From Cephalotus follicularis (taxonomy: Eukaryota; Streptophyta; Magnoliopsida; Oxalidales; Cephalotaceae): 64,000 nt of DNA. The notes beneath the pieces are model-generated. The model had not been told where the DNA came from. It made no database searches and saw only the letters and a program-made list of their open reading frames with translations. Positions within the stretch are counted from its first letter, which is position 1. Every line of letters starts with the position of its first letter. Location of the stretch: contig BDDD01002914.1 in assembly GCA_001972305.1 (NCBI GenBank), forward strand, positions 1 through 64,000. Reading direction: 5' to 3'. Of the stretch, positions 1,721 through 63,996 are shown piece after piece. The translations under genes and the position numbers were made by a program.

Positions 1721-1800
1721 CAGTCGACTGTCACAGGGGAACAGTCGACTGGCTGATGCGTGTGGTTGACAGTCGACTGGCCCATGCATCCAGTCGACTG
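1721..1800. promoter_or_regulatory. Palindrome array 1, four CAGTCGACTG sites
   Basis: Four perfect 10-bp palindromes start at 1721, 1742, 1770 and 1791, giving steps of 21, 28 and 21 bp. They lie 163-243 bp from the LTR start, in what should be U3. The sister LTR at 57905-60809 has the same four positions with the same steps (60557, 60578, 60606, 60627). The spacers are not repeats of one another. Binding-site function is inferred. Confidence 0.7.
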
Positions 1801-2821
1801 GAATTTCGACAGAACATGTGTCTATGCAGGTGTAAGACTGAGCTTGAGCGTGGCATGTTAAAGGACAGGTGTCGTGGGCATGCACAAGCTTCCATGACAT
1901 GCAAGGAGAGCCCTTGCATGTGCTCTGCAATGACAGACCTGCACCTGCAACTTTGAAAAGAGAAATGAGTAAGAAAACAAAGGCATGGGAGAGAGAGAAG
2001 ATGAGAAATTGCTAAAGTAAAGAACTCTGGAGAAATTCCAGAATTGTGAGCCTATATCATCTGTGCATAGACTAATTGTAAGTGTTGTTAAACACCAAAA
2101 GAAGGAGAATTGATGGAGGATTGTCTTGGATGCATGTTGAAGGTTTAAAGCTCAAAGAGGGAAAAGTGAAACTTTGAGCACCTCCTGGTAAGTGCAGATT
2201 CGAAACCTTGTGTAGTGTAATCTGATAGTAGGGTATCTAGGAATGCTTAACCTTCTATTTACATGGATATAGTTAGCATTTCTAGAATCGAAGGGTATGG
2301 AAATTAAATGGAATGCAACTCTTGGTTCATAAATGGATGTTAATCTCTAAATTGATTAGTAAGCTGTTGTTAGTTCCATAATAAGCTACTAAATTCCTTA
2401 TGGATATACAAACACATCTACTGTCCAATTATGAGATGATGAATCCTATAGTTGATAAATGCATGAGATGTGATAAAGAGAGTTAAATGAGCTTAATGAA
2501 CTAATGACTAAAGCTATGGTTGATTAGAGTTTTCCTAAGTCTACTAAACCTACTGTTACTGATGCATGTACCCATAAACATGCATAGATTAAACCTAATG
2601 AGATTGAAAGAATTATTGGTGGAAGCTTGGAAAAGGCTTTGGAAGCTTTAAAGAGAAAGATCATTCAATTGATCTTGGGATAGCAAACTGAGGTAGGGGT
2701 GGTGTTATATTTTGGAAGATATGTTCATGCATTTCATGTATTTAATTTCTACTTGCATTGGAATTGATTGGCATTGAATTGTACTATATTTACTCTGTTC
2801 TGCCTGTATTCTGGGCAAAAA

Positions 2822-2934
2822 CAGTCGACTGTTATGGAAAACAGTCGACTACTCAATTGATTCAGTCGACTGGCAAGGCCAGGAAGTCGATTGCACAGCC
2901 CAACAGTCGACTGGTTCCTGAATGCAGTCGACTG
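2822..2934. promoter_or_regulatory. Palindrome array 2, six sites at 20-21 bp
   Basis: Six CAGTCGACTG-type sites, one of them degenerate, start at 2822, 2842, 2863, 2884, 2904 and 2925. The steps are 20, 21, 21, 20 and 21 bp. The matching region of the sister LTR has four sites (59312, 59333, 59353, 59373). The regular step with unlike spacers points to phased binding sites rather than a simple minisatellite. Confidence 0.7.
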
Positions 2935-4269
2935 TTCTGGGCAGAAATTGCATAACATCAATGAAATTGTTACTGATTTGCATTGCTACTGAATTGTATA
3001 TGATACCATCATATAATAGATACTGTTTGATGTTATTTAGCATCATTTCTACTGATATTTCAATGATCGAACGAGATATGTGCTATATGCACAAATTATG
3101 GTTTAAACACCACTTTCAATGGAAGTTATCATCTACAAGAACTACAGTTTTGATTAATGTTACCATATATGCTACTTATGTAGTATATACCTACTGTTTG
3201 GTGCTATTAACAACACTACTACTGATAGTTTCAAGATTAAAACCATTTATGGGATTTAAGCCCAAAATTATGATAATTCACTATCATTTTCAAAAGAAGC
3301 TTATTGTTAAGATAAACTACTGATTTCCTCCACATGAGAGGTACCTACTGCTTGTTTCCGAATTGGAAACCATCACTGTACTGATATCGTTTCCTCATAT
3401 GAGATGTACGATTACTGAAATGATATGTTTCTAAAGAAAACGCCTTGATATTGCATATTGATTATATATGTAATATTATTACTGATTGTACTGATTGAAT
3501 TGATTGTCTATGTTATTGCCGTAGTTAGTGATGGAGGATATCACTGATTATGGATGTGATCCTGGGTGCCAAGGGTTGGCCAGAGTATCACCCCACTGTC
3601 TGCAATTGCAGAAATTACTGTTAAACTACCCGCCAACGCCGGTAGTAATTGTTACCTGTTCTATCATCCTCGGTGTATAGGGTGATAGCTAGGTGGTGCA
3701 CAGTTGGTGCTAGGAGTTAGCGACATGTGACACCCAAACCACTGAATGAATTGATTGTACCCTTGTGCGGTATCTTTGCATATGTACTGTTTATGGCCAC
3801 TTGGCATGACTGCTTACATATTGACACACTGAAATGATATTTTATATAAACTGTCATACATGTTGCATTCATATATATTCCTCAGTATACTTTATCTTCC
3901 TACTTAGCCAAGTGAGGACAACGACTAACCCCTACAATTACAGATTGAGCTAGGACGTTCGGAACCTTGCTGCCGAAGTTTGGAAAGCTTCTGTTTATCT
4001 TTTAAGGTTGTTGTTACTTTTAATGTATTGTAATGAATGAACGAATCATACCTCGTTTAGTTGTTTTCCTTATGCTAAGGATAATGTTGAATTGTACCCG
4101 CACGTAGTATGGGATGCGTGCGGATGGCTTGTAATTTTATATTCCAGCTTATTGACTGTTTCCGCATATTGTTTAATTACTGTTGAATGAAATGCTGGAA
4201 TTTATGTTTAATACTGATATCACCATATATGCTGGTCTAATGTAAGTGAACGAAAAATGGGGTGTGACA

Positions 4270-6023: not shown

Positions 6024-6707
6024 TATCTCCCCTTCCTTTCAACCCTTGCGTGCTTGTTGGACCTGGTTCTTTTCCCTATTAAAGGTTTCGCTTGATCAGG
6101 TTGTTCTGTCCCATTTGTTCTACCCATTTCAGATGTTAGATGACCTAAGATTCATTTTGATGCAGGGACTTGGTGTGTATTGATTTTTTTGAGGATTTGG
6201 ATGGATGAATGATTTTAGGTTCTTGTGCGTTTCTGCCTGGCGGATTGAGAGTTATATTTTATGTTTTTAGAGTTCTTATAAATGTGTTTAACAGGTGTCG
6301 GTTAAACAAACAGTTGTGCATTAGGCGTCGTCACCTAAAAGAAGACATCGTCGCTTAACGTGCATATGTGGGAATAAGTTGATTCGGTGGTCTAACCGTT
6401 GACGATTTGAAAGAGCAATACTAAGCTGCAACACTTGGTATGAAATTCTCATTTAGTGCCAATAATGGACAGAAAATTAAAGCAATGGGTTGAAACAACA
6501 GTAACGTTCAAACCCTTTACATCAATAGTTTGTGATTTTTAGTGTTTCATATTACAAAATTTTTAAGCTCCACAATTAATAATGAATCCTTGCCTATTGA
6601 AAAAGATTTATTATATTGACCTTAATGTTGATAAATAGAAATTTAACACGAATGAATCTTATATGTATGTAATACATATTTCACAGCACATCATAATTGC
6701 ACGACAA
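6024..6707. other. Unassigned, with a degenerate GTCG-type array
   Basis: I recognise no gene here. Between about 6297 and 6403 there are GTCGGT, GTCGTC, ATCGTC and GTTGAC sites in AAGCG/CGCTT-like contexts. They resemble the palindromes in the leader of the Angela element A (38948-39251). With the inverted Angela LTR directly to the left, this may be the decayed leader or internal part of that element. Inference only. Confidence 0.35.
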
Positions 6708-7398
6708 ACTCTCCATATCTCAACACCAATGTATTTTAAATCGTACTACTTCCTTGATAAAAACAGGGTGATTATCCCACAATATGGTGATGACCATCAT
6801 AATCTAATTATAAATTTCACCAAACAATAGAAAATCAAATGAACCAATAAATATCCCATTTGCATATTGTGTTAACCAATCAATTGTTTATACATTGTAC
6901 ACGTATGCATTTACTATGTACGCATATGTTTCTACGCGCATATAATTTACTTACAGTGTTTGTACCCTTTCTGAGAAGTTCTGTGAAGGTATGGTAAAAT
7001 ACAACTATGAAATCCCTGGAATGTAATTGTGCCGTATGACGCTACATACGTTGATTCGCTGATTTTACCTTATAGTAATATTGTTGCATCACGACACAAA
7101 CGTCCGCCTCCTCTGAAGCAAGGATTCCAATTTTTTTCGACTCCAGTTTTTGTTCAACACCAGAGTCGAAAAAATGGGATTTCTTATCATGCGACATGTA
7201 CGGAGTTAAGGGGAGCGGGGATCATGATGTTTACATTCTTTAATGACGAGTGTACATTGAATGTGCATGTGAGTACAATATTTCACGATTACATGCACAT
7301 TTACAGAACGATGGTAAATGAAGGGGGCTGCTGAATGAGTAGTAATCTATCGAATTTGAAATTTAAAATGCATCTTATATATGAGTGTATCACGAATC
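6708..7398. repeat. Dispersed repeat, copy 1
   Basis: This segment aligns in the same orientation with 13344-13820, which is a shorter copy. Both begin near AACTCTCCA and end in CATCTTATATATGAGTGTATCA. The second copy ends exactly where element A is inserted, so copy 1 is a paralogous empty site for that insertion. A 101-residue ORF at 7029-7334 lies inside it; it is not kept in the other copy and matches nothing I recognise. Confidence 0.65.
7132..7174. repeat. Perfect 12-bp inverted repeat
   Basis: TTTTTTCGACTC (7132-7143) is followed after 19 bases by its exact reverse complement (7163-7174). It falls in a part of the dispersed repeat that is missing from the other copy. Too short to call a MITE. 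Confidence 0.5.
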
Positions 7399-7997
7399 AT
7401 TAAGTGGTAAATTAACATGACAAAATGATATATGACCCTATTTTATAACATGTCCATTGTATTTGGGTGATTGTGCCAAACAACAAATGTCACACCACTT
7501 GACCAAGAAACTGCTTGTTGACCTGCGTGGTTGATATGATAAACAATGGCCAGCAATTATGGGACTACCCATAATTGCATACATGCACGACACACCAAGC
7601 CGGTACATTTACATGTATAGCAGTATAAATACACATATTATATACACATATATACGTATCACACACACACACACACACAGACATCAACTTTTAATAGATG
7701 TCAGATGTGTCAACGTGAATGTTTAAAACACACGGACATGAACAATAATAAACAAAACCATCACATTGACGTTAATGTTTCAACGCTACGAGTTGATGCC
7801 TATTTCCATCTTCTTGTAATAAGGGACACAGTATGCATGCTCGTGAAAGGTAGGTCCAACATTACAAGATTTAGTGTCCACCATATAGAAAATTTCATAG
7901 TGTTAGTTTTTTTTGGTCATGGGATTGTGAGCAACATGCACTAGCACATGTGTAGGGGGCCAATTTTCCTGTCTTATCTATTTATAAGTTCCCAATT
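7399..7997. other. Unassigned AT-rich stretch with a CA microsatellite
   Basis: No gene is visible. An alternating CA microsatellite lies at about 7656-7680, preceded by AT-rich ATATAC-type sequence. Confidence 0.6.
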
Positions 7998-8420
7998 CAG
8001 TGAGTGATAGGTTCTAACACAAAGTATGTCACTTCATGGGGTGACTCATTTTTCAATGCCTCCTTTATTAGGATACCTTTATCTCTTTTGTTTGTTTTTG
8101 TGCATTACTTTGTTTTGTTTTTTTACCCTATCTATATCTGATTGTTTCTACAACATTATCCTTATACCAATAATGCAACCATCTACCCCCTATCTATTGT
8201 ATTTGTGTGTGCCCAAAGCAGTGAGTGATAGGCCCCAACACAAAGTATGTCATTTCATGCGATGACTCCTTTTTCAATGGCTCTATTATTAGGATACCCT
8301 TAGCGTATTTGTTTGTGCATGACGTTGTCTTTTTTTTTTTTCTATTTTTACCCTATCTAATTATGTCTACATTGTTATCCTTATACCAATAATGCAACCA
8401 TGTACCTCCATATAAGCCAG
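7998..8420. repeat. Tandem dimer with a 221-bp unit
   Basis: CAGTGAGTGATAGG starts at 7998 and again at 8219. The two units stay alignable through TTATCCTTATACCAATAATG and beyond. They differ at many positions, so the duplication is old. A 79-residue ORF at 8026-8265 runs from one unit into the other and is not credible as a gene. Confidence 0.7.
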
Positions 8421-8569
8421 GACACCCCTTCATTGGTGCATAGCACATGCTTGTACTAAAAAAGCCATTACTATGTTCATCAGTTATGCCACATGTGCTT
8501 TGCATGTTCTTAATTGATATCGTCTAAGAGCAACTTCTTTGGTTCATGGAGAGTGTTAGATAGGGGTAT

Positions 8570-8574
8570 CCCTG
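8570..8574. repeat. TSD of the solo LTR, left copy (CCCTG)
   Basis: CCCTG directly precedes the LTR; the second copy is at 10255-10259. Removing the insertion restores an Angela-like LTR start. Confidence 0.85.
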
Positions 8575-10254
8575 TGTCACACCCCGTTTACAAAACGCAG
8601 CATAAAAGCGGTAAAGGCAATTAACACAAACATACAGCTCATGCAAAACCATAAAATTAAAACTTAAACCCTTAACAAGGTACAACAGTTGCGGAAGCAC
8701 AAAACCATAGGCTGTAAACCGTAACGTGTGTCCCATACCACACGCTACTCAAGAACAAGTCATCAAGCTAATCGCCCATAAAACGGAGCGTGAAAAACAA
8801 TACAAATTTAAATTCTGAAAGAAGCAAGATTATTACAACAGTACAACCGAGAGCCATAACCAACATCGGTGTAAAGCAAAGCAGGAAAACAAGCAGAAAC
8901 AAGATCATAACAACTTGATCATCCTTCATGTCGGTCCAACAGGTCCACGACCTCAATCTGCAAAGTAGGGGGTTAGCCGTTGTCCTCACTTGGCTAAAGC
9001 ATAACAGCAGTTCGGAATTAAAATCAATGCATGTCATGATATGAATGCATAAATGATGCAGTACAGTGGAACGCAGTTTATACATATATAAAAGTACGTA
9101 TATCAGTACAGTAAAATATCAGTGTTACATATATAAGAAATATACGTAAGCAGTAACAGTACAGTAGTAACCCGGCCAGGGCTACGTCACAATCACGGTA
9201 ATGTCCGGGCAGGACCAATAAGCAGTACAGGATGTCCACATAGGACTACAACAGGCAGGATGTCCACATAGGACTACAACAGGCAGTATGTAGACTAAGC
9301 ATGGATATTAATTTGAAATACAGTCATGGCTTTCCCCTACCTCTTGTCCCACGTTAGGAACAGGAAAGTCCACCCCTTTTCGTTTCCAAACAGGTCACAG
9401 CAGCTCCAAGATTCTTCCCGTCGCTGCAAGCCACTAGCTCCCAAGCTTCCAAGCTCCAAGCAAGCTCAACAATGGTGGTCAAAGGAGGAAGTGTTTTCTC
9501 TCTTTTAATTTCTGATCTCCAACAGTCACAGTGTCTCTCTCAGGTGTATGGTTCTTTCCCCAACAGTAGCCGAAGGTAAGGGGTGAGGAATGTCTTTTAT
9601 GCACTCTTCTTTGTTTCTTTTGTGTTTATTGCAGGTCACATGCATCTAGGGCACACCCACCTTCTGCATGCAGTCACTGCGTTGGTTTTTCCCCCTCCTT
9701 CATGCCAGACAGTGCCCCTCCCTTCTATCCATCCATTGCATGCCCACTTGTTCCATTTCTCTTTCATGCATTGCATGTCCACCCCCACAAGTCACACTTG
9801 TTCACATCACTTCTGTCATGCAGGTTAGGGAGTAGGGTGCATGCCCAACACGTCCCAAGCCATGCCCCAAGGCGTCTGCAAAAGCCCCATCTCGATTCTC
9901 CCCTCGCACGTTTTCTGTCAGAAGGTAACATGCAAGACATTCGAACTTAAGACGTCGACGTCTTTCCAAAGACGTCGATGTCTTTGGTCCGGATCGTGGT
10001 GCATGTGCATGCAGTTACGTGAAACACTCTGTCAAAAAGGCGTCGACGTGATTCATAAAGGAGTCGACGTCATTACTCCAAGACAGCGTCGTTTTAGCCC
10101 TTTATACATTCCTTGGACATTTAACACCAAAGCTTCAAAATAAGAAGGATTGGAAAACATCACCAAATTCAGAAAAACCATCCTTATTAATTCCACAATT
10201 TAAGAGTACAAATACATTGTGAAATTATAATACATGGAAATCTCGGGCGTTACA
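8575..10254 (-). mobile_element. Solo LTR of a chromovirus-type element
   Basis: On the minus strand this 1680-bp LTR starts TGTAACGCCC and ends GGGGTGTGACA. It is flanked by the 5-bp direct repeat CCCTG at 8570-8574 and 10255-10259. There is no internal region, so it is a solo LTR left by recombination between the two LTRs of an element. The hairpin box at 8973-8997 matches those in the Tekay LTRs of this window. An array of AAGACGTCGACGTCTT-type palindromes lies near its U3 start. Confidence 0.88.
9951..10070. promoter_or_regulatory. Palindrome array in the solo LTR
   Basis: GTCGAC or GTCGAT cores start at 9954, 9974, 10042 and 10063, forming two pairs with steps of 20 and 21 bp. The first pair has the arms AAGACGTCGACGTCTT, the same type as in Sirevirus D at 43865-44280, although the two elements belong to different superfamilies. 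Confidence 0.65.
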
Positions 10255-10259
10255 CCCTG
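10255..10259. repeat. TSD of the solo LTR, right copy (CCCTG)
   Basis: CCCTG directly follows the LTR and matches 8570-8574. Confidence 0.85.
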
Positions 10260-12590
10260 AATGCCACGAGAGGTGGTTATACGCATATGTATAAACACTC
10301 TTTATATAAACATTCTTAATTCCATTATTGTTTTATGTGCATATTTTATGAAATATGGCATTTTGTTATATTTATTATCCCAAACCATGTTTATGGATCA
10401 ATGAATCGTCATGTTAATTGAATACACATATAACACCCTGTCGATAAAGCCTATGAGAATGAGATCCTTACTCCATTATGACAAAATGTTCTAAGTCATC
10501 GGTTTACTCTCTTAGGGAAATTGATGAACCGTAAAGACTTTTCGTGTCATGCTTGCTCCGAATGATAGAGGATGGAATATCTCATTGCCATTTGGGTTTA
10601 CACTAAAGCTGATGTGGGGTGCATGTGAGGAGGCATGTCACTGAGCTGACCCACCATAGGAAACCTATTTGGAGTGCTCATACCTTTGTCAATAAGATTC
10701 CTATAGTCTTGGTAGTGTATAGTCAAAGGTGACTAGTAGATCATACGTGATTTACGTTGTATCCTTGGACTTAAGCGGCTGGCATGCATTGTGTAGTAAC
10801 CGCTTGGCTTTGGTTTCTGCCTTCCCCAGTACTAGCCACGTGCTGGCAAAAGGGTTGTCTCTGGGCCTTGTGGAAGCTGGATTGAGATGTATGGGTCAGT
10901 GTGCAATATGGAATCATCATACCCGTATTGAGGGGTGACTAGCTCTATAGTATTTATGTACGTTGAGACTTAAATCCTGGCCTGGTGGAGGCAGATTTGA
11001 ATAAGAGGTTCCTGGAATGTCTATCGATTGTCTCAGTTCGAACATGAATTTTATAGCTATCATGGTTTTACCTGGGGTGATATTAATTCAAACCCTAATA
11101 TGCGGTCAGAGCCAAGGATGACGAGGGATACATTACACAAACATCGATGACTGTAGAGAGTACAGGTTATTCGGCTAACGTATGATAGACGTGGTACTAT
11201 GGTCAACAGATCCAGAGTGGTGATTGGATATCACACCGGTGCCATTTAGATAGTCGAAATACTATTGGGATGGTCGTACCAGAAATTTGGGATATTCTAG
11301 GAAATATATCATTGTATCGGAATCCAACCTGGCTTTTGGGTCCTACCTGATTTTGGAATTAGTTGACGTGTGAAGGGTACATGTCATTTAGTTAGAGGAT
11401 GGCATCAAGGGGATGTTAAACATTTATTTTGCTGGACTTTATCTTTTCTTAAAGTCTAAGTTCAAGCTGCACCATCAATAGTATGTTTCGGGCTAAGGGT
11501 ATTTTTGTCATTTATGAATTATTGCGTAATTCATGGAGAGAGAGAGAGCATTTGGGCCGAACCCTATGCCTTGGTATGGCTAGGGTTTGGGGTGCCTAAA
11601 TGTAGCCATTCATCGTGTCAAAGTAACTAATTTAGTTACTTGGAGGTTGGATTAAAACTAGCATGATATTGTTGACTAGTTAAGTTAGTTAGGAGCCAAG
11701 TAACACACGTTTAATAAACTTGGATCATAATCCTCCCTTTATGGCCGGCCATATGAGTGAAGGAGAGTGTGTGTGTGTTGCTAAATTCTGATTGGTTGAT
11801 AGCTTAAGTCATTTGAGACATTTGTTGGTCTCATTTTAAGCACACGGCAACAACACTTTTTTTTTGAACTTAAGTGATTTAACTTAGCTTCTCACATACT
11901 CTTCATATTTCTCTCAACTTCATCCGTCTCTCTCTTTCCTCTCCTCTTCTCCATCACCACCGAAGTTTAAGCTCTCCTTTGATGGAGTTGTAGAGCTCCA
12001 AAGCTCAAGAAGAAAGAAGCAAAAATACTCACCTCTTCTCCCCCCATAACTCTTATTAGGTGGAGTTTTTCATTTGAACTCTTCCTACTTTGAGTGTAGT
12101 TTCTTGGATACCAAACAAGCCTTTACACCTTCATAATACCTCATTGCCGCCACCTTGGGAGAATATTTTGTGAAGTAGGAAAGCTTCAAATTCAACTTGG
12201 AGAACACACCATTTTGGAGTGAAGGAGTAAAGACCATTTGGTATGTTTCTTCCTTCATCTTTTTGCTTATATTGTGAAGTGGTGTGTGTGTTGGTGGCAA
12301 GGGTTTTGCCAAACCCTTGCACATTTTTGCTGGATGTTTTGTGTAGGTTTTGATATATCTAAACCCTTTTCTAGGGTTTGTGTATGGTGGTTATTTGATT
12401 AGGGTTAGTGTGCACCTTAATTAAATTATGGTATGTGGCCATTCCTAGGGTTAGAGTACCCTTGCTCCACCTGAACCCTAGGCTACTTGGGACCTACCAT
12501 AGGTTCATTTAATTGTCCAATTAGAGATCCTAGAATTCAATTGGAACATTTGTGGACATCGGTTATGGGTGGTTCCTTCACATGAACAAA

Positions 12591-13343
12591 AATTTTAACT
12601 TTAGTCACCCTAAACCCTAATGTCTACGAGTGCTTTTCTTCCCCTGCTTTCCTAATTACATCAGAGAGGAGCTATGTCGCACAACCCTTAGTGTCATTAT
12701 CTGGAGTAGAAAAACAATTGAAAATTTTTGCTTTGTGTTGCAAATCAATAACCACATGTGGTAGGTTATTCTGTTCAAAAGCAGAACTTTGATCAACAAC
12801 ATGCCTCTTCGCATCTAAAAAGTTGGCTAAAGTCCTATTTATCGTGCTTTTGGACCGGCAACTTCAGGATGATGGTGGCAATCATGACCCCATTTACATA
12901 TGAGAGTCAATTTGATATGTAACCCTACGTGATTGCTTCCAAACTTTTCCTCGGTGTTGCAGAACTCTGGCTGTACACTTCTTGTTAATATACTATTACG
13001 TGTACAAACGACAGTTAATTTTTTTTTATGTTATCTTCTTTGACAACATGAAATCAAATTAAATCAACACGAATTGCACATTTCCATATAATTTACATCG
13101 AAAGGGGAAGCATGAATATCCAAACATTTTGAGCATTAGTTATGAGATTTAACGTGGATTGAGTTAAATGTTTTCAGTAATTTTCAGCTTCTACGTACAA
13201 AGCGTACACATGATATGCCTACTACATACAATTACAATAGCGAATGAGCACATTTGATATGCCTGACATGCACATTTTCACAACAAGGTGATTGTCTAAT
13301 TTACTCAATTTGGGTTTTCCGTGTTCATTATAAATTTATCTAA
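12591..13343. other. Unassigned stretch
   Basis: I see no gene, LTR end or clear repeat. A lone CCCTAAACCCTAA near 12609 is too short to be telomeric repeat. Confidence 0.5.
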
Positions 13344-13820
13344 CGCAAACTCTCCAAATCTCAGAACCAATATATTTGAAATTGTATGAGTTCCTTGACC
13401 GAAACAGGGTGACCCACAATCATATGATTTAAAATCGTTTCAAAATCAATCTAATTATAAATTTCACCAAACAATATAAAATCAAATGAACCAATAAATA
13501 TCCCATTTGCACGTTGTCCTAACAAATCAATTGTTTATGCATTGTACACAAATGCATTTACAATGTACGCACATGGTACTACGTATGTATAATTTACTTA
13601 AAGTGTTTGTACCCTTTCTAACAAGTTCTTAGAAGAAAATACCCTTATGATGTCTACATTCTTTAACGATGGTCGTACATCAAACGTGCATGTCTGTAAG
13701 ATGTTGCACAATTACATGTACATTTACAGAACGATGGTAAATGAAGCGGGCAACCGAATGAGTACTACTATATTGGATTTGAAATTTTAAGTGCATCTTA
13801 TATATGAGTGTATCAAGGGC
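13344..13820. repeat. Dispersed repeat, copy 2
   Basis: Shorter direct copy of 6708-7398. Its right end is cut by insertion of element A, whose left TSD is at 13822-13826. Confidence 0.65.
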
Positions 13821-13821
13821 C

Positions 13822-13826
13822 GCTAA
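13822..13826. repeat. TSD of element A, left copy (GCTAA)
   Basis: GCTAA precedes the first LTR base. The window ends with GCTA directly after the 3' LTR (63997-64000), consistent with the second copy being cut off by one base. Confidence 0.75.
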
Positions 13827-14723
13827 TATTAGATAGGATGTCCCAACAAGCCATTGGATGGGTTTTCATATTGTATCTATACATGTATATAAACAATCTT
13901 GTTCCTGATATATGACATGTGCTAATTTGTTTATATTATTTATGGCAATATCACTTGTGTTTTATCACATAATTGAAGTAGTTTAATATTTCTCTACTAA
14001 CACTTGTGATGCCCTGACATAAGGTTGGATGCCAAGCATGGAGGCAGTGAGATTGGCTACCTTATTCCTTATGTCGAATTACTTCCAAGTCATAGGTTCA
14101 CTTTGTGGGCATTAGTGAACCGGATAGACTTGCACGTATGTTGTCTGCTTTTGGAATTGGAGGATGGATTCTCTCACTAACATCTGTGTTGGAACACTAG
14201 GGCAAATACGGGGTGCGTGCTGGGAGCGTGTACACTGAACAGGACATGCGTAGGAGACACTGCTTGGATAGTCGTTATTCTCGTGTCAGTAATGACTCCA
14301 ACTTGTTGCTATTGTGTATAAGTGTTAATCACTTAGCGAGTTCTCAAACTCGTATAATCCTTAGACCTGAGCGACTGCTCTATATTGTATGGAGATAGTT
14401 ATATTTTGATCTCCACATTATCCAGTTCTTGCGCAGGGCTGGCAATCGGGTGGTCTTTGGGTATAATTGAATCTATACGAATGTAAGCGAGTGCGCAACA
14501 TGGAATTGTCACACCTGAGCGAAGGTGATCGACTCTATCATTGTCTGATTGTACTATGGACTTATGAAACCCTTGCCCAAGGTTGAGTTGGACTCGAAAT
14601 TAGATTTCCGGAGAGTCTACCAAAGGTCCTAGTGATTATCAGATATTTTAGGCATTCATGTATAATATAGGGTTGACACGTGTCCTTACCCTAGACCTCA
14701 ACCGGGGCCAAGTATGACAAGGG

Positions 14724-14728: not shown

Positions 14729-15841
14729 TGTAATACCCAGGTACGGTTTTGCAGAAGATTCTCTTTGTCATTTGTGTGTTAAGGCCTGGTTTGGGTTTTA
14801 TCATTTCCTTTATCCATTTGGAAGTCCTCTCTTGTGCAATATTAAGTCCCAAAAGTGGCATTATTGGGAAGAGTCATTTATTTTGACTAAGCCCATATGT
14901 GAAGCTTACAAGAGAAGCTAACGGTTTCCAATTGGATAAGACGTGTGTCAGGGAGAGTGTGTGAAATGATATATCTGGCACCTTGGAGAGAGAAAGAAAG
15001 AGAAGATGTCTGTGAGAAGTAAGAAAAGAGAAGAAGTTAGTGAGAGGTAGGTAGGAAGAATAAGGAAGAAAAGGAAGACGCTGAGTGAACTTTGTCTGGG
15101 TGAGTTGTGAGTACTCCCTGTGAGGTTCAAGCTTCCTCTTCGTTGGATCCTTACTTCTGGCATGACCGAGCATCTCTTCTACAAGTCTTGTTTCTCTTCT
15201 TCTCAATTTCTTTTGTAGTCAAACGTGGTTGAAGGTGATTCTCACAGATCTTTGATGTCCTTACCCAAGTGTGGTACGGTGGATTCGGAGTTCCTCAGTA
15301 CGCCGAGCAATGAGTTGGTATCCCTGGTGTGTTTGACATCTGAGATGGCGAAACGTGGATCCGCTGGTAGATCCAAAGCTCTAGGTGGGCTACTTCAGTT
15401 CTTGGAATATGAAGAATCCAGTGGTATGGTGGATTCGGTGTTCCAAGGAACTGGTAAGCATTGCAGGAGCTGGTCTTGAGAGATCCAGGTATGTGACGTT
15501 TTACTGTGATTTTGTTTATGGTTATACATACTTAACCATTTTGTGTTGAGGTGTTTTGTGAGTTTGTGTTTTAGCATTTAGATTCTGGGTAGACGAGGTT
15601 CCTCAAAACTTATGTGACGAATAGAGCTGTTATGGCCATGTAAGATGCACGTTCTTGCCAGGAAGTTAGTGCGATGTGCGTCCTGGCAGAGGAGTCAGTT
15701 TGATGTATATCCCCTGCTGAGCAATACATGTTAAGCTTTCCTTGCAGAGTAGTCCACATCGGGCGTCCCTGGGTGAGCAGTGCATGTCAAGCATCTTCTT
15801 GAGCATTTACCAGTTGAAGTGTCTCCTTGGTAGTGGCTGAT

Positions 15842-17015
15842 CACACAATTGCGGAAATTTAAAGAGTGTAGGGTTGAGAGAGTTGCAAACAAATATATAG
15901 TGGTTTAGCAAACCGCCTACGTCCACTCCCCAAGGCCTCCCCTTGAGTATTTCACTAGTGTACCCCAATCAGGGCTTGAAACTCCGACCGAGCTTCAAAG
16001 ACTTTCGCTCCAACCAAGCGAAATACAAGTTTGCTCCTTCCGAGCTATGCAAGAGACAACCTCTCTTGTTTACAAGAAATTTAGTGTTTAAAGGTATTAC
16101 AAATTCTCAACGAATTTGTTTACAATTTTAGCTCAAATCTCACAAAGCTTCTAATGATAGAGAATGTAAATGGTGAAGGCTTTGTAGTATGTGATATTGC
16201 TTCTTGATGATCTCTTTTGGTGTTGAGAGAGTTTGGAATTGTGCTTGAGTTAGCTTGAATGAATATTCACTTTGATTGCAAGAGGTTCTTTGAAGAATGC
16301 TCCACTTTGGCTTATAAACAAGTGCTCCAACGGATCTATTTTTGAAGTTCTGGTACAATCCAGTCGGCTGGATTTCTTGGGCAGTCAGCTGGAGTTGATG
16401 AAGCGTATTTCAAATATAGAAGTTAGATGAAGACAGTCGGCTGCTTCCTCTGGGCAGTCGGCTGGTGGAGGTTGACAGTCGGCTGGTGCTCTGTTCCAGT
16501 CTGCTGGTTGAGGTAAATTGGACTTCCAAAAAGCTACTGCCAAATGTTGCACAATTGGTGACAGTCTGCTGGATATGTTGGCAGTCGACACGTGACCCTT
16601 GGCAGTCGACTGGTGTCCTGCTTCAGTCGGCTGGATGAGGTGGTGTGAAGTTCCAAAACCTACTGCCTGAATTTGACACCCTTGGCAGTCGACTGGACCT
16701 CCTTGGCAGTCAACTGTTTTGTCCTGGCAGTCGACTGCTCCCCTGATGCAGTCGGCTGGTGTGTTGTGTACCTGCAGTTCCTGGGTTTCCTTCAAGAACC
16801 AGTCGGCTATTTAATCAAAACAGTCGACTACTCAACCCTGGCAGTCGGCTGGATTTCCCTGTATCTGCAGAAATAGCTTTGGCACAAGTTTGGACATAAA
16901 ATCAAGTGAGTATATGAATTTATAGTTCAGAGAATTATGCATACAAGTACTATATGTTTGTTAATCATCCAAATAACACATGTTAAGACAATTAACGGGG
17001 TGGCAAAGGCCAACA
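15842..17015 (-). repeat. 3' LTR of Sirevirus E
   Basis: On the minus strand it starts TGTTGGCC at 17015. It matches the 5' LTR up to its outer end, which is trimmed where it meets the LTR of C. The ORFs at 15943-16131 and 16140-16358 recur in both LTRs simply because the LTRs are copies. Confidence 0.85.
16361..16851. promoter_or_regulatory. Palindrome array in the 3' LTR of Sirevirus E
   Basis: Sites start at 16361, 16382; 16434, 16455, 16476, 16497; 16562, 16582, 16603, 16624; 16686, 16707, 16728, 16749; 16800, 16821, 16842. Steps inside groups are again 20-21 bp. The last group has three sites compared with four in the other LTR. Confidence 0.75.
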
Positions 17016-17030: not shown

Positions 17031-17198
17031 ATGATTGACAAAACATACACATTTTGCATAATTTTTTAAAACCTAAACATTTTTAACCTCCAAAGTTCAA
17101 TATAATCAATTATGTCATAACCATTGCATAAGGCATATCAAAATACACTTGCTCAACACTAGATTTCACATAATTTTATATCGCAATGAATATTCATT

Positions 17199-17243
17199 TT
17201 CAACTAAATGCAACTTTCAAAAACATTTATCCCCCAAATGCAA
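17199..17243. repeat. LINE target-site duplication, left copy
   Basis: 45 bp beginning TTCAACTAAATG and ending CCAAATGCAA, identical by eye to 21899-21943. The first two T may be chance. This is longer than the usual plant LINE TSD. Confidence 0.85.
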
Positions 17244-17408
17244 CACAAACTCAGATTGTCGGATCCCTATTCCCGAATCACCGGTTTCCATATCATCCCC
17301 GCCCAGAGGAGTGGTTTCCACTCGCGCTTCCAAAAAGGCCAAAAGTAAAGGCCAACCTAAAGGCAGCTCTAGTGCCACTATAAAAGGTGCCCTCGCTCCC
17401 TCCTCCTC
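17244..17408 (+). pseudogene. Possible tail of LINE ORF1
   Basis: In frame 1 this reads as a proline/serine-rich and then basic stretch (IPIPESPVSISSPPRG, RASKKAKSKGQPKG), similar in character to the C-terminal tail of plant LINE ORF1 proteins. No zinc knuckle is present because the 5' part is missing. It directly precedes ORF2. Weak call. Confidence 0.35.
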
Positions 17409-43169: not shown

Positions 43170-43171
43170 AC

Positions 43172-54786: not shown

Positions 54787-56101
54787 TGTCACACCCCGTT
54801 ATTTCCATTCACGTACAATGGACCAGCATATGCGGTGATATCAGAAAATAAGCATAAAATAATATTTTGGCACAATCCATAAGTAAATTTGCGGAAGCAT
54901 TTAATTAAACCGAAACATAAGTATAAGTCATCCGCACGCATCCCATACTACGCGCGGGTAAAACAACAGTTATCCTTACATAAAAGGAAATACAACACTA
55001 CGAGGTATGCACCATTCAGTATCAATTACAGTACAACACCATAAATAACAACCTTAATTCAAAGATAAGAAGCTCTCCAAGCTTCAGCAGCAGTCTCCAA
55101 AAGTCCTTGCTTAATCTGAAATTGTAGGGGTTAGCCGTTGTCCTCACTTGGCTAAGTAGAATGATAATGTATGATAAGGAGTATATGAATGCAACATGTA
55201 TGACAGTTTATATCAAATAACATTTGAATGGGCCAATATATAAGCAATCATGCCAAGTGGCCATTAACAATCCATATGCAAGAATACCGCACAAGGGTAC
55301 AATCAATCAGTCCAGTAGTTTGTCCGAAGACCAGTATTGACTCAAGACGTCGCCAACCCCTGGCCTACGTCGAGCTCCTAGCTATCACCCCAACTCCGCT
55401 GATGATAGGAGGCAAACAGTACCACCGGCATTTAGCGGGTAGCGAACAATCAGTTCTGCAATTGCAGACAGTGTGGTGGGTGCCTAGCCAACTCCTGGCA
55501 CATAGGACCACCTCCATAGTCAGTGATGTCTCCTATCACTCGAGTACAGCAGTAAACATAGACAATCAATTCAATCAGTGCAATCCAATGTAATATTACA
55601 TATGTATATAATATGCAATATGAAAATTGTTTTCTTTAGAAACATTAACAATTCAGTAACCGTACCTCTCATAGGAGAAACGATCTCAGTAACAGTAGTG
55701 GTTTCCGGCTGGAAACAAAACAGTGGGCAGTAAAACAGTAGGTGATAAATCAGTAGCTTCTTGTAAATGATAGAAACAAAACAGTAGGTACCTCTCATAT
55801 AGGAGGAAAATCAGAAGTTCCATTTAACAATAAATGTTCTTTTAAAAAGGATAGTAATTATCAAAATTTTGGTTCAAGTCCCATAAATGGTTTTCAATCT
55901 TTAAACTATCAGTAGTAATGGTGTTAATAGCACCAACAGTATATTTATACTAACATAAGTAGTATATGTAGCAACATTAAATCAAAACAGTAGTTCTTGT
56001 AAAAATGGCAATTTTTATTGAAGGTGGTATTAAAACCATAATGTTGTGCATAACTCGTTCGATCGATGCAATACCAGTAATAAAGATGTTAAATAACATC
56101 A
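54787..56101 (-). repeat. 3' LTR of the inner Tekay element, shortened
   Basis: It aligns with 57905-59219 of the 5' LTR at about 98-99 percent by eye. It includes the hairpin box at 55131-55155 but not the palindrome arrays, which lie in the missing part. Confidence 0.85.
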
Positions 56102-56104
56102 AAA

Positions 56105-57904: not shown

Positions 57905-60809
57905 TGTCACACCCCGTTATTTCCATTCACGTACAATGGACCAGCATATGCGGTGATATCAGAAAATGAGCATAAAATAATATTTCGGCACAATCCATAA
58001 GTAAATTTGCGGAAGAATTTAATTAAACCGAAACATAAGTATAAGTCATCCGCACGCATCCCATACTACGCGCGGGTAAAACAACAGTTATCCTTACATA
58101 AAAGGAAATACAACACTACGAGGTATGAACCATTCAATATCAATTACAGTACAACACCATAAATAAAAACCTTAATTCAAAGATAAGAAGCTCTCCAAGC
58201 TTCAACAGCAGTCTCCAAAAGTCCTTGCTTAATCTGAAATTGTAGGGGTTAACCGTTGTCCTCACATGGCTAAGTAGAATGATAATGTATGATAAGGAGT
58301 ATATGAATGCAACATGTATGACAGTTTATATCAAATAACATTTGAATGGGCCAATATATAAGCAATCATGCCAAGTGGCCATTAACAATCCATATGCCAG
58401 AATACCGCACAAGGGTACAATCAATCAGTCCAGTAGTTTGTCCGAAGACCAGTATTGACTCAAGACGTCGCCAACCCCTGGCCTACGTCGAGTACCTAGC
58501 TATCACCCCAACTCCGCTGATGATAGGAGGTAAACAGTACCACCGGCATTTAGCGGGTAGCGAACAATCAGTTCTGCAATTGCAGACAGTGTGGTGGGTG
58601 CCTAGCCAACTCCTGGCACATAGGACCACCTCCATAGTCAGTGATGTCTCCTATCACTCGACTACGGTAGTAAACATAGACAATCAATTCAATCAGTGCA
58701 ATCCAATGTAATATTACATATGTATATAATATGCAATATGAAAATTGTTTTCTTTAGAAACATTAACAATTCAGTAACCGTACCTCTCATAGGAGAAACG
58801 ATCTCAGTAACAGTAGTGGTTTCCGGTTGGAAACAAAACAGTAGGCAGTAAAACAGTAGGTGATAAATCAGTAGCTTCTTGTAAATGATAGAAACAAAAC
58901 AGTAGGTACCTCTCATATAGGAGGAAAATCATAAGTTCCATTTAACAATAAATGTTCTTTTAAAAAGGATAGTAATTATCAAAATTTTGGTTCAAGTCCC
59001 ATAAATGGTTTTCAATCTTTAAACTATCAGTAGTAATGGTGTTAATAGCACCAACAGTATATTTATACTAACATAAGTAGTATATGTAGCAACATTAAAT
59101 CAAAACAGTAGTTCTTGTAAAAATGGCAATTTTTATTGAAGGTGGTATTAAAACCATAATGTTGTGCATAACTCGTTCGATCGATGCAATACCAGTAATA
59201 AAGATGTTAAATAACATCAAGCAGTGTGTACTATCTGGTGGTAACATGTACAATTCAATAACAATATCAAACAGCAACAATCCAATCGATGTATGAATTT
59301 CCTGCCCAGAACAGTCGACTGCCATCAAGAACCAGTCGACTGTTGGGTTGAGTAGTCGACTGCTTTGGGTGGCAGTCGACTGCCTCTGCCTAGAAAATGC
59401 AGAAATAGCAAGTCATGTAATGCCAATTCAATTCTCAATCAATTCAATACATGTAATTATGCAGAAAATAAACATACATAATATGCATACTCATATCTTC
59501 CATGACATATCATTACCCCTACCTCAATGTGCTATCCCAAGATCAATTGAGTTTGATCTTTCTCTTTGAGTTTCAAATCACTTTCACCAATCACTCTTTC
59601 AATTCAGCAATATCAATCTATGTAAGCATGTTTTATGGATACATGTATCAATATCAGTAAGTTTCAATAACTCATACAGTGGTTTAATCATTAATCCACT
59701 TAAGCCTTTAACTTTCCTTTACCATTCTATCACTTCCCTTCTTTGAACTCTATGCCAAATATCATTAATCTTTGATTCATTGATATTAATTCATTTGAAA
59801 GTAGGTATATGCATAAAATCAGTATGTATACATGTACTAATCAATTACTATAATCATTATCTAGTTGTATCAAGAATTACTAGAATTCTTAAGTTTCTAG
59901 TTCCATTAAAACACCTTTCATATTCCAACTAATTTACTCACTCCATCTACTGATTTGCATGTTCAACAGTAGGTATATGCATACTTAGGAGTCATTAAGC
60001 ACATCCTAACATTAACAACAATGAAAATCCATTCTAGAGACTATATCACCAATCCCACTTGATTTCATTGTTACTTTCCATTTCAATTCCAAAGATTGTT
60101 ATTCCAATCCATTAACAGAAGATATACAATATTTTTCCTAGTCATTTTATCATCAAAAATAACAAGAATTTCGGATTTAGAACTTACCAAGAGTCTAAAG
60201 TCTCAAAGTCCTCCCTTTTGAGCTTTTCTAATCATCCAATGCAAGCTCCACTAATCCCTTTCTTCTCTCTGTGTTTTCTAACACTCAAACACCATTCATT
60301 CAGCAGATATAACTCTCAATTCGTCAGATTTGTCACCTACTCACATGCACTCACAATTTTCTTTCATTCTTTCTTCCATCACATGCTCCCTCACTCCACT
60401 TTCTCCCATAAATTATCATTTGCAGGTAGTAGGTATGCAGAGAACATGCAAAACATTCCCCTTTTGCATGTTCTGGCAGGTGGGGAGACACAAGTGCCTT
60501 TAACCCATCTGTCCTTCTTGTCTTTGCACATGCTAGGCATCTGTCCAAGAGCAGACCAGTCGACTGGAATTAGTGGGCAGTCGACTGCCTTCCTCACGTG
60601 GCCAACAGTCGACTGTTGCCCTGTGACAGTCAGCTAGTTGGGCTGGATTAGGGTTTTCCAAGCTTTGATACTTTTCCAATTGCATATCTATTCACCCCAA
60701 ACATTTACCAATCATAGAAATCAATATAATAGGACAAATAACTCAATTAAATGTATATTTTATTTCAAATTCGGATCAATATACATTAATCAAAGTTACG
60801 GTTATTACA
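57905..60809 (-). repeat. 5' LTR of the inner Tekay element
   Basis: 2905 bp, homologous to 1558-4269. It has palindromes at 60557, 60578, 60606 and 60627 near the U3 start and at 59312, 59333, 59353 and 59373 in the middle, with steps of 20-21 bp inside groups (28 bp between the two U3 pairs). Confidence 0.88.
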
Positions 60810-60814: not shown

Positions 60815-61753
60815 ATAGGCATGTCGTAGGCCTGGCACGGGGACATGACACTTCCGTAGCAGTGTGATTTGACTACGGCGTCTCTCTATGTTATGAATAA
60901 GTCCCATGAGGTGGACTTATGGATCCGATATGTGTGATAGAGGTGTATGGGTTGACTCTAGTTATATGATATGTGATATGATATGAATTCTGGGGATTGA
61001 TTTTGTAGTGTCGTACACGTCCTTCCGTTCGGCATGTGGGCCTTGCAAACCCCTTGCAATTACGCATATGTGTATGCGCTTTGGATCTCTGACATGAGAT
61101 TATGGAATCAGATAAGTCTTTGTTTGTTTTTTGTTTTGAATATGTTTTGGGATTTTGGACTTGGATTATGTTTTGAAATTGAATAACGCTTTGAAAATTG
61201 GATATTCGTTTTGAATTGATTGTATGACTACTTACCTTCGCTTTTGAAAATAATGTTAAATTATTTTATGTATAAAGTATATGATATTTAAAGATTCAGG
61301 TATTTTCTATCCTTTAAAGCATCGTTTTATGTTTTATGATTCTCTATCCGTACTGAGGTTTGCTCAGTCGCGTTTTGTTTTCCATGCGGCAGGTATTCTG
61401 GGACACCATCCGGGCAATGTGTGATGAGCGAGATGTCACCTATGTTTAAGGATCATCTAGGAGATTGGTTCGGTTATGTAATTAGTAGTGTTATGGTCGT
61501 GTATAGGCCAGTTATCTAAACAGTAATGTGATTTTTGGGATTATGACATTTTGGTTTATGACAAAGTTTTCATATTATGTTTCAGATTCAGTTTATGTTC
61601 CATGATTATACATGTTTTCAGATTTTTAGAACCACCGCGTATTGATGATGATTAAGATTAAGATTAAGATCTTTGATATGTTTTAGTTCAGTTTTGTGTG
61701 ACTCACCGATCCCGAATCGGGTGTGATCCCGGTTCTGAATCGGGGGTGTTACA

Positions 61754-61758
61754 ATAGG
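61754..61758. repeat. TSD of element B, right copy (ATAGG)
   Basis: ATAGG directly after GGTGTTACA; the tail of A resumes with AGTTCATGGC. Confidence 0.88.
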
Positions 61759-61788
61759 AGTTCATGGCTTGAGTATCAAGTGGGAGAT

Positions 61789-63996
61789 TGTTAGATAGGA
61801 TGACCCGATAAGCCATTGGATGGGTTTTCGTATTGTATCTATACATGTATACAAACAATGTTATTCCTGATATATGACACGTGCTAATTTTTTTATATTA
61901 TTTATGGTAATATCACTTGTGTTTTATCACATAATTGAAGTAGTTTAATATTTCTCTACTTACACTTGTGATGCCTTGACATAAGGTTGGATGCCAAGCA
62001 TGGAGACAGTGAGATTGGCTACCTTATTCCTTATGTCGAATTAGTTCCAAGTCATAGGTTCACTTTGTGGGCATTAGTGAACCGGATAGATTTTGTGTAT
62101 GTTGCCTGCTTTTTGAATTGGAGGATGGATTCTCTCACTACCATATGTGTTGGGACACTAGGGAAAATATGGGCTGCGCGCTGGGAGCGTGTACACTGAA
62201 CAGGACCAGCGAAGGAGACACTGTTTGGATAGTCGCTATTCTCATATCAGTAGTGACTCCTACTTGTTGCGATTGTGTATAAGTGTTAATCACTTAGCGA
62301 GTTCTCAAACTCGTCTGATCCTTAGACCTGAGCGATTTCTCTACATTGTATGGAGACAGTTATACTTTGATCTCCACCTTACCCAATTCTTGCGCAGGGT
62401 TGGAAATCGGATGGTCTTTGGGTACGATTGAATCTATATGAATGTAAGCAAGTGCACAATATGGAATTGTCATACCTAAGCGAAGGTGATCGGCTCTATC
62501 ATGGTTTGATTGTACTATGGACTTATGAAATCCTTGGCAGGGTTTGAGGTGGACTGGAAATTAGATTTTCGGAGAGTCTACCAAAGGTCCTAGTGATGAT
62601 CATATATTTTAGGCATTGAGGTATAATCTAGGGTTGACACGTATCCTTACCCTAGACCTCAATCGGGGCCAAGTATGACAAGGGATTGTAGTGCACGCGA
62701 GCCGAAAACTTAGAAAGTCTCGCATTACGGCGGTGTGTAATAAATTATGAGAAAATTAATTAGATTACTTTTTCCCATATGGATAATATTGGATATTATT
62801 CTGAGAGCATTTAAATAGGTCTAGGAACATTTAGAATGGCTTAACCGAACCCTAAGGGTTTTTCGCTAATTTATGAACACCACCGATTATAATCGAGATT
62901 TTATAGGGTCCCTGCCTGATAATGATTTCTTCAAAAACATGTTGGACATATTAAGTATTGGTGAAATTTATAAAATCAAATATCGGTTAGGTGGATTTCG
63001 CAATTTGTGGAAACACGTTGTCTTGATCTTACTTAATCAATATTCGAAGGGATATGTGGCAACACTAAAATGAGTTAGACTCATTTAAATAAGAGTTAGA
63101 CTCGAAATGTTTGACCAGCCCTCTAAGCATCGACGCTTTGTGGAAAAGCGTCAATGCTTAAACCACGTCTAAGCGTCAATGCCTTGTGTAAAGGTGTCAG
63201 CGTTTAGCCCGTCTAAGCATCAGCACTTTTGGAAAAGCGTCGACGCTTAGAACGGTAACATGGGTGTATAACGTGGGCTCGCAATATGCGTATGATCTCT
63301 CTCCCATTCCCTCTCCTACTCCCAATGGTTTTCACTTATTAGAAACTGGAATTGAGCACGTCAAGATCATGCAAACATGTTTCCTTACAGATTGCTACAT
63401 GTTCTTGAGTGGATGAGTGGGTGAATAGAGAGATTAAGTGACTGGCATAAAACTGAAGAAAGTGATTCATTGTGGGTGCGGGTCTTTTGGTAGAGCTTTT
63501 CTGAGCAAATCCCTTCTCATATTTCTTCACCAAGTTTGTTGCTTATATTGGGTGGATTGCTATTAACTATTGGTTAATTCCAATCTTCTCTTTGTGAGTT
63601 TTGAGAGTGAGAGGGAACAAAACAGTGACTATCTTTCTTGCTAGCTTGAGGAGCCTATTGCTTGGAGCAGTAAGAGCTCGACTTAGAAGAGAACACCGAG
63701 GGAGTCTACGCAAGCGTGAACCAGCAAAGAACGAAGGAGCCATCACCATACGGTATGAACTCCTTGTCTCCCTCTATGTTGCCATGTTTGAGTGTCACCA
63801 TTGCATGAATTGGTGATGCCAATTAAATTATGTTTATGATGTGGTGATCATTTACCTGTGGATTCCCTGTTTTGGACCTCGTTTTATGGTGTTTATGTTT
63901 TTCCTTCCGCTGCATGATGTTTAGAAACTTTTTGTTCAACATTCTAACACCATTGGTCCGAATCCTGGATATGGGTATGGTATACCATTGCCAACA
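61789..63996 (+). repeat. 3' LTR of element A
   Basis: It starts TGTTAGATAGG directly after the polypurine tract (61780-61788) and ends GCCAACA at 63996. It is 2208 bp and uninterrupted. It matches the split 5' LTR end to end, at roughly 8 percent difference by eye. It carries the palindrome array and a TATA-like TGTATAAC at 63265-63272. Confidence 0.9.
63129..63244. promoter_or_regulatory. Palindrome array in the 3' LTR of A
   Basis: Six cores start at 63129, 63150, 63175, 63196, 63219 and 63239, with pair steps of 21, 21 and 20 bp. The last core ends about 20 bp before a TATA-like TGTATAAC. Confidence 0.65.

Follow-up and report, generated by a model that had tools for sequence, protein, structure and literature searches.

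Why should the long terminal repeats (LTRs) of unrelated retrotransposons carry arrays of one short palindrome, repeated at a step of two helical turns? The question is raised by a 64,000-nt stretch of the Cephalotus follicularis genome (assembly GCA_001972305.1, contig BDDD01002914.1, positions 1 to 64,000, forward strand; hereafter the window, in its full length), which is filled by a nest of LTR retrotransposons. Arrays of GTCGAC-centred palindromes lie in two Sireviruses (D and E), in a further copia element (A) and in two gypsy copies of opposite strand that we call Tekay-like. The names Tekay and Angela, the latter for A, are taken over from an earlier sequence-only reading of this DNA, and we place the elements as gypsy and copia respectively. 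On the patterns described below, our preferred reading, to which we give a probability of about 60%, is that the arrays are cis-regulatory dyad sites within LTRs, read by a putative host DNA-binding protein, with the lineages sharing the core of the site.

PALINDROME ARRAYS IN THE WINDOW

GTCGAC occurs 44 times in the window against 4.95 expected (100 shuffles, maximum 12), and array stretches totaling 2.7 kb hold 38 of the 44. Fourteen GTCGAC pairs are 20-21 bp apart, start to start, while no other of the 64 palindromic hexamers has more than one such pair. Counting one copy per family, including degenerate copies and with a weak D site at 29710 added by hand, 31 of the 35 gaps of at most 30 bp are 20-21 bp; the remaining four are 19, 22, 23 and 28 bp. 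Both the arrays and the nearly constant step had been recognized by the sequence-only reading, and both hold.

The Tekay-like arrays are built of the palindrome CAGTCGACTG. On the plus strand, array 1 (1721-1801) has four sites at steps of 21, 28 and 21 bp and array 2 (2822-2934) six sites at steps of 20, 21, 21, 20 and 21 bp. The minus-strand copy has four sites in array 2 (59312-59383), which is 42 bp, or two units, shorter than its plus-strand counterpart, and four in array 1 (60557-60637) with the same steps of 21, 28 and 21 bp, its outermost site (60632) having three mismatches and being added by hand. The array at 60559-60613, which had been assigned to a chromovirus-type solo LTR, is in fact array 1 of this minus-strand 5′ LTR, and matches 1723-1798.

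The largest arrays are those of D, on the minus strand. The 5′ LTR array (29224-29736) has 18 sites in groups of 2 + 4 + 4 + 4 + 4 with an in-group step of 20-21 bp, and the 3′ LTR array (16361-16852) has 17, being shorter by exactly one 21-bp unit; each LTR gives 17 sites at no more than two mismatches, and one weak unit was added by hand in the 5′ LTR. Groups of four, described earlier as the commonest unit, are thus seen in D, but they are not the top level of organization. Their starts lie 128, 124 and 114 bp apart, nested in blocks of ∼125 bp of which the first three are tied by 71-72% similarity over ∼205 bp and all four align. A lone CAGTCGACTG (23499-23508, minus strand) stands just upstream of the envelope-like open reading frame (ORF) of D; no other CAGTCGACTG with up to two mismatches was found in 22000-24272 beyond this exact site at 23504.

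E has ten sites of AAGACRTCGAYGTCTT type in its 5′ LTR (43860-44266, minus strand) and a remnant of three in the other LTR (40589-40717, minus strand). Only one LTR has the whole array; ∼515 bp, with seven of the ten sites, are missing from the other. One break of this difference (40592 versus 43626-44141) falls on a GTCGAC palindrome, which would fit deletions promoted by palindromes. Element A carries, on the plus strand, five sites of AAGCGTCGACGCTT type in its 5′ LTR (37789-37913), four in its 3′ LTR (63125-63249) and eight in the leader (38974-39249, within 38967-39256), downstream of the primer binding site. The locations given by the sequence-only reading are right for D, E, A and the Tekay-like copies, except that in A the sites are not confined to LTRs. 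One more array, of five AAGACGTCGACGTCTT-type sites (9957-10088), occupies 9949-10096 on the plus strand of an unclassified element.

Within the 5′ LTR of D the sites lie at offsets 168-670 of ∼1275, and a TATA-like motif follows at 720, 50 bp past the last site; in E such a motif follows at ∼100 bp. In both Tekay-like copies (1726 and 60632), as in both D LTRs (29731 and 16847), 167-177 bp separate the LTR start from the first palindrome. The LTRs of these elements are otherwise unrelated, and the equal offset may be coincidence.

GENOME-WIDE COUNTS AND AN INDEPENDENT SAMPLE

Throughout the genome, CAGTCGACTG pairs with 0-30 bp between them number 48,687, against 166 for the reversed-pattern control. 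Pairs with 8-14 bp between number 38,225 (137 reversed), so that 79% fall at steps of 18-24 bp. Among 69 listed pairs, all from contig C1, the step is 20-21 bp in 52, 19 or 22 bp in five and 27-28 bp in 12, with none elsewhere; over 57 listed places of the 8-14 bp pattern, likewise from contig C1, the mean step is 20.72 bp (standard error 0.08), equivalent to 10.36 bp per turn. For AAGCGTCGACGCTT the genome-wide count at 0-30 bp between is 268 against 0 reversed, and among 50 listed pairs from contigs C10 to C410 the step is 20-21 bp in 25, 22 bp in two, 42-43 bp in 17, 32 bp in two and other values in four. Since each family enters these genome counts with many copies, they do not represent independent events.

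We also used an independent sample of twenty 10-kb stretches (200 kb) from other contigs (C20 to C970), all cut at the same fixed position and so not random; one of them, L006 (1-10000), contains 1285 N. GTCGAC is found 103 times in this sample against 16.9 expected (order-2 model), and in 15 of the 20 loci two or more GTCGAC lie within 130 bp. Among adjacent gaps of 12-40 bp, 15 of 24 for GTCGAC are 20-21 bp; the runner-up of the 64 palindromic hexamers is AATATT with 4 of 12. The 20-21 bp peak that the sequence-only reading proposed to seek in other copies and in unrelated families is present among the listed genome-wide pairs and in the sample.

The sample also defines the core more exactly. 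Of the 16 palindromic tetramers TCGA ranks highest, with a 20-21 bp partner for 103 of its 695 occurrences (14.8%; 1.4% expected), followed in ratio by GCGC (4/161; 0.3% expected), ACGT (22/397; 0.8%) and TGCA (44/960; 1.9%); ACGT itself belongs to a GACGTC-flanked palindrome type. By class, a partner at 20-21 bp is found for 45 of 102 GTCGAC, 40 of 139 ATCGAC/GTCGAT and 10 of 79 ATCGAT, against 8 of 374 for the seven remaining NTCGAN classes combined. Since these are the phased classes, the core is R-TCGA-Y. GTCGAC, the core as first proposed, is enriched and phased but too narrow. In a hexamer screen over 230 classes with at least 30 pairs each, not deduplicated, the top 15 classes for 20-21 bp pairs comprise 12 pieces of the palindromes and three that consist of A/T only; palindrome pieces also make up nine of the 12 classes with the strongest 10.3-bp phasing. 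A search of viral contigs with one pattern and two ORFs gave no match.

SPREAD OVER LINEAGES

Several sampled loci could be assigned. L005 is a gypsy element whose reverse transcriptase, 91% like that of the Tekay-like elements, lies between two LTR copies; L013 and L024 each have an LTR pair that encloses a gypsy integrase and carries an array in either LTR; and in L021 an LTR pair flanks a Tekay-like gag fragment. L006 is an E-like Sirevirus, and L007 and L017 have A-like LTRs. Exact AAGCGTCGACGCTT, the 14-bp palindrome of the copia element A, is also found in the gypsy locus L024. Arrays therefore occur in gypsy, Sirevirus and non-Sirevirus copia elements. The claim that one phased arrangement is shared across lineages stands in this respect, with the qualification that the 27-28 bp interval of the Tekay-like elements is off-phase.

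Exchange between Tekay-like and D elements, as judged from spacers, is suggestive only. Spacer matches to D reach p 0.017-0.035 for the minus-strand Tekay-like copy and p 0.22-0.57 for the plus-strand copy. One adjacent spacer pair is common to the minus-strand copy and D (p 0.0017, for a statistic picked post hoc); the plus-strand copy has no adjacency signal to D spacers (p 0.27).

HELICAL PHASING

Steps of 20-21 bp had been interpreted as two helical turns between dyads. We examined the phase of GTCGAC-like sites in the independent sample, limited to deduplicated pair distances of 26-110 bp. The best period in a scan of 6-16 bp is 10.3 bp (n = 244 distances), and none of 3000 jittered sets was as strong at 10.4 bp. 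Odd-turn bins (31, 52, 73 and 94 bp) hold 71 pairs and even-turn bins (42, 62, 83 and 104 bp) 63, while the eight half-turn bins together hold 63. The reversed-motif control is flat, though with only 28 distances. The phase score at 10.3 bp has a 95% interval of 0.10-0.37 (bootstrap over loci); adjacent gaps taken by themselves (n = 118) give weaker agreement (jitter p 0.0008, Rayleigh p 0.03). Because odd turns are as full as even turns, the helical interpretation is stronger than when it was first made, and copying of a 21-bp unit is therefore insufficient by itself.

GROWTH OF ARRAYS AND RETENTION OF SITES

Unlike spacers had been held to exclude tandem duplication. This is not supported, and for D it fails: spacers in D have a likeness of 0.36 against 0.271 when shuffled (0 of 5000 shuffles), its blocks are similar, and copies differ by whole units, as the two D LTRs and the two copies of Tekay-like array 2 do, so duplication is part of the origin of the arrays. 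Spacer likeness is weaker elsewhere: 0.31 against 0.246 in the plus-strand Tekay-like copy (p 0.02), p 0.39 in the minus-strand copy and p 0.06-0.08 in E and A. The arrays grow through unit duplication; sites are afterwards kept, and spacers drift.

Between diverged copies the palindromes are retained better than their spacers. The two Tekay-like copies of the window, compared at the eight of ten sites that are alignable and leaving out two plus-strand sites without a minus-strand counterpart, are identical at 78 of 80 palindrome positions (one of the 78 matches being an alignment artefact at the outermost site, where the contiguous sequence is TAGCTGACTG), 45 of 71 spacer positions and 1686 of 2458 other LTR positions. 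CpG is kept in seven of eight palindromes against 17 of 47 elsewhere. Palindrome and spacer identities in the sample are 87/100 and 46/92 for L005a and 52/58 and 32/49 for L005b (the two LTRs of L005), 74/87 and 50/83 for L012, 48/56 and 39/68 for A with L007, 47/56 and 37/68 for A with L017, and 100/128 and 111/175 for E with L006.

Within single insertions the order is reversed. The two LTRs of D differ at 12 of 170 palindrome positions against 24 of 1005 in the rest (p 0.003), those of A at 12 of 70 against 96 of 1242 (p 0.01) and those of E at 4 of 45 against 19 of 674 (p 0.05). Palindromes thus decay faster than the rest of the LTR within one insertion, so that their retention is not due to low mutability, and it therefore belongs to the life of active elements rather than to dead copies. 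None of 113 changed base pairs, a set that takes in both LTRs of D and of A, is compensatory.

Some results weigh against the regulatory reading. Aligners may favour repeated motifs, and the palindromes were therefore masked during alignment; palindrome columns are then less identical than the rest, at 45/70 against 1923/2488 for the minus-strand Tekay-like copy (p 0.014) and 22/40 against 1947/2465 for L005 (p 0.0007), and the masked alignment of L012 placed no site. To these are added the artefact among the 78 matches and, for A, the lack of a significant gain of palindromes over the rest of the LTR (p 0.08 and 0.26). With respect to phase, the middle interval of Tekay-like array 1, at 27-28 bp, is off-phase yet conserved and common (12 of the 69 listed pairs); exact GTCGAC is outside the top 12 hexamers for 10.3-bp phasing; the phase score is negative at 5 of 17 loci with at least three distances; and phasing of the window's own 14 longer gaps is weak (V-test p 0.03 at 10.5 bp; Rayleigh p 0.15). 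Lastly, no TATA-like motif was found within 240 bp downstream of the Tekay-like arrays, nor downstream of the A arrays in the window copy.

The lower identity of masked columns we put down to one-base slips, several sites being intact but shifted by one base. When a shift of up to 2 bp is allowed, five of seven placed sites of the minus-strand Tekay-like copy and three of four of L005 have at most one mismatch; for random 10-mers in the same two comparisons the figure is 62 of 231, against 8 of 11 sites (p 0.003).

WHAT THE ARRAYS MIGHT BE

On the regulatory reading, each palindrome, with its R-TCGA-Y core and family-specific flanks (CAG.., AAGAC.., AAGC..), would be the site of a dimer or of a symmetric pair of proteins. 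Unequal recombination or slippage would add sites, both as ∼21-bp units and as larger blocks, and selection on living elements would preserve the palindromes and hold them to one helical face (∼10.36 bp per turn) as spacers drift. Unrelated lineages would use one core since they live in the same nucleus with the same host factor. A symmetric DNA-binding protein fits because of the dyad symmetry, the fixed core with variable flanks, the phasing at odd turns, the lack of compensatory changes and the placement of arrays relative to TATA-like motifs in D and E. Such a protein may act as an activator rather than a repressor. The sequence-only reading had left open whether the factor is encoded by host or element; convergence or exchange, as it proposed, may lie behind the sharing across lineages, and we favour a host factor over an element-encoded one, which is less likely, because unrelated lineages have the same site.

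Other explanations deserve consideration. The arrays could be plain minisatellites of ∼21 bp, produced by slippage and without function, in which the palindrome is simply the most alike part of the unit. The likeness of D spacers, weaker in the plus-strand Tekay-like copy and not detected in the minus-strand one, would fit this, as would the slight likeness of the 18 distinct 7-nt spacers of listed AAGCGTCGACGCTT pairs (0.43 against 0.387), the whole-unit differences between copies and the masked-alignment columns in which palindromes are not better kept. Slippage leaves unexplained why sites fill odd helical turns as fully as even ones, why the same core with different flanks appears in unrelated lineages, and why diverged copies keep palindromes above spacers and, site by site, above random 10-mers (the faster decay within insertions notwithstanding), and we think it improbable. 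We regard as similarly unlikely a role in RNA, where neighbouring palindromes would pair in the transcript and the hairpins would feed small interfering RNA (siRNA) production or package the RNA, a role that has been proposed for the palindromes of maize Sireviruses. Fold z-scores of −3.4 to −6.7 for the Tekay-like arrays and −3.6 for the D array point in this direction, as does the excess of small RNAs that PMC10760457 reports at palindrome clusters of maize Sirevirus LTRs. Self-pairing is expected of any repeated palindrome, though, and the 113 changed base pairs include no compensatory change; the phase is present although hairpins need none, and the identity of R-TCGA-Y is kept, beyond symmetry alone.

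If a protein does read the arrays, a CBF/DREB-type AP2 protein is a named candidate, which would make the LTRs cold- or drought-responsive. CRTDREHVCBF2 and CBFHV are motif names of the PLACE database. PMC9138379 tabulates the former as GTCGAC, a core C-repeat/dehydration-responsive element (CRT/DRE) motif, and the latter as RYCGAC, so both are listed CRT/DRE cores. One-mismatch neighbours at 19-22 bp fit RYCGAC in 25 of 40 cases against a background of 96 of 424, and sense-strand GCCGAC occurs at 5 of 18 sites of the D 5′ LTR and 8 of 17 of the D 3′ LTR. On the other side, ATCGAT has RYCGAC on neither strand and is still phased (10/79 against the 8/374 of other classes), RYCGAC is retained, on one strand or the other, at no more than 6 of the 17 sites in A and 12 of the 18 in the D 5′ LTR, and deamination at an outer CpG can yield ATCGAC. 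A monomer, moreover, should need no palindrome, and two fully overlapping sites could presumably not both be filled. With evidence on both sides, this identification seems to us a long shot. Still less likely is a protein encoded by the elements themselves. VANC proteins are anti-silencing proteins of VANDAL transposons, and such binding has a known signature, clusters of short sequence-specific motifs outside the coding parts of mobile elements. D does have an extra, envelope-like ORF; against this, gypsy and copia elements have the same core, and no common extra gene was recognized with Pfam in 30 ORFs, though 13 of the 30 are without any match. We give hardly any weight to the palindromes being integration targets instead of regulatory sites. 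In favour, PMC6911290 describes a slight palindrome preference at insertion sites of plant LTR elements; against it, none of the five nested insertions of the window (D into Y, Y into A, E into A, B into A and the minus-strand Tekay-like copy into B) is bounded inside an array.

The regulatory reading has a bolder form, in which one host DNA-binding protein family reads one-face R-TCGA-Y dyads and regulates many LTR lineages, the array having converged or been exchanged. We advance it tentatively, at less than even odds. If true, the transposon community would have a common enhancer code, represented genome-wide by tens of thousands of site pairs. Were many lineages served by one factor, it would give a shared handle on the activity of a genome's transposons, and the arrays would show that elements without close kinship can arrive at one control site within a host. 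Use by gypsy elements, the common core and the measured phasing together pose a defined biochemical question, namely which host protein binds R-TCGA-Y dyads.

RELATION TO KNOWN SYSTEMS

The closest known system is the repeated motif (RM) boxes of Sirevirus LTRs (Bousios et al. 2010, PMC2829016). RM boxes are dyad-symmetric, number 8 to 32 per element and lie mostly in the upper half of the LTR, ahead of the TATA box, with a published start at 200-400; envelope-bearing elements have extra copies upstream of the envelope gene. The D array is like them in being palindromic, in having at least eight copies per LTR and in clustering in the upper half ahead of a TATA-like motif. It is unlike them in its core, CAG-TCGA-CTG rather than the CGG-CCG reported for all but Tnd-1; the published Tnd-1 motif is thus also without CGG-CCG. 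Two of the 13 motifs listed there, Vitis CGGTCGACCG and Tnd-1 ACAATCGATTGT, share the TCGA centre of D. RM boxes were called Sirevirus-specific and absent from classic copia elements, whereas here Tekay-like (gypsy) elements and A (copia) also have arrays. The 2010 description gave no common binding protein for them, and the accessible text of PMC2829016 has no mention of helical phasing.

Maize Sirevirus LTRs have palindrome clusters with the motif CACCGGACNNNGTCCGGTG, which PMC10760457 and PMC5311732 treat as a structure and small-RNA hotspot. They and the Cephalotus arrays are both clustered palindromes in the LTR cis-region, with different motifs. CACCGGACNNNGTCCGGTG is also reported from maize Helitrons (PMC10760457), an earlier hint of sharing across superfamilies.

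Our literature search, for which subscription papers were mostly out of reach, found, in titles, abstract openings and text passages, no description of phased GTCGAC arrays across lineages, and none of the papers matching CAGTCGACTG concerns transposons, as judged by title or the start of the abstract. Two-turn spacing in promoters has precedents in the 21-bp repeats of the human T-cell leukemia virus type 1 (HTLV-1) LTR and the simian virus 40 (SV40) early promoter, where binding sites stand two helical turns apart. The Cephalotus arrays resemble these in spacing; the HTLV-1 and SV40 repeats have few copies, known factors and unrelated sequence. The arrays of the Tekay-like elements, L013, L024 and A extend palindromic boxes of this kind beyond Sireviruses, and D is a further Sirevirus case. 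The helical spectrum of palindrome spacing is, to us, new.

ELEMENTS OF THE WINDOW

The plus-strand Tekay-like copy is represented by its end, with an LTR at 1558-4269 lying 3′ of an integrase ORF (36-1508). The minus-strand copy has a 5′ LTR at 57905-60809 and a truncated 3′ LTR at 54787-56102; its reverse transcriptase ORF reads directly into the truncated LTR at 55980-56102, a deletion junction. Pfam recognizes a gypsy RVT_1 in the pol of the minus-strand copy (E-value 6.8e-34) and an integrase H2C2 in the plus-strand copy (3.6e-19), where a chromodomain scores weakly (E-value 7e-4; 19.9 bits, under the cut-off of 25.1).

D and E are Sireviruses; A is a non-Sirevirus copia element, far from D. 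The Sirevirus mark, the polypurine tract AGGGGGAG followed by AT and the TG of the LTR start, is present on the minus strand in D (17018) and E (40858), and the tract was not found on the strand of A. E has five identical tracts in its linker (40858-41111); copies in D are at 17018, 22014 and 22046, and one at 18616 belongs to a nested element. The primer binding site TATCAGAGC is exact in E at 43158, while D has only GGTATCAGA at 28614, a 9-mer that is found too in the minus-strand Tekay-like copy and in A. Reverse transcriptase identity between D and A is ∼34%, and gag identity between D and E is 39%.

D, on the minus strand, has its 5′ LTR at 28625-29899 (3′ boundary approximate) and its 3′ LTR, preceded by AGGGGGAG and AT/TG, at 15840-17014. 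Its gag (27540-28586) has as best match a Cephalotus follicularis protein (86% identity over 88% of the query), the species to which most of the stronger matches also belong, and its envelope-like ORF (22815-23432) matches PF20167. Just inside the 3′ LTR a long interspersed nuclear element (LINE), the nested element mentioned above, occupies 17077-21871, with endonuclease, RVT_1, zf-RVT and RVT_3 in separate ORFs. E (40137-44404, minus strand; 5′ LTR 43170-44404) has gag as its only recognized gene. A, on the plus strand, has a 5′ LTR split between 13829 and 38660, pol at 45606-48579 and a 3′ LTR from 61791. The region 6032-13828 is the unclassified element, whose repeated ends are 81-83% alike; no Pfam match was found in the five ORFs tested. 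Elements Y and B have LTRs of TGTAAT type. Those of Y (30305-31536 and 35426-36703) are dense with tandem repeats of 27, 34, 43, 58 and 82 bp, several of which have unequal copy number in the two LTRs.

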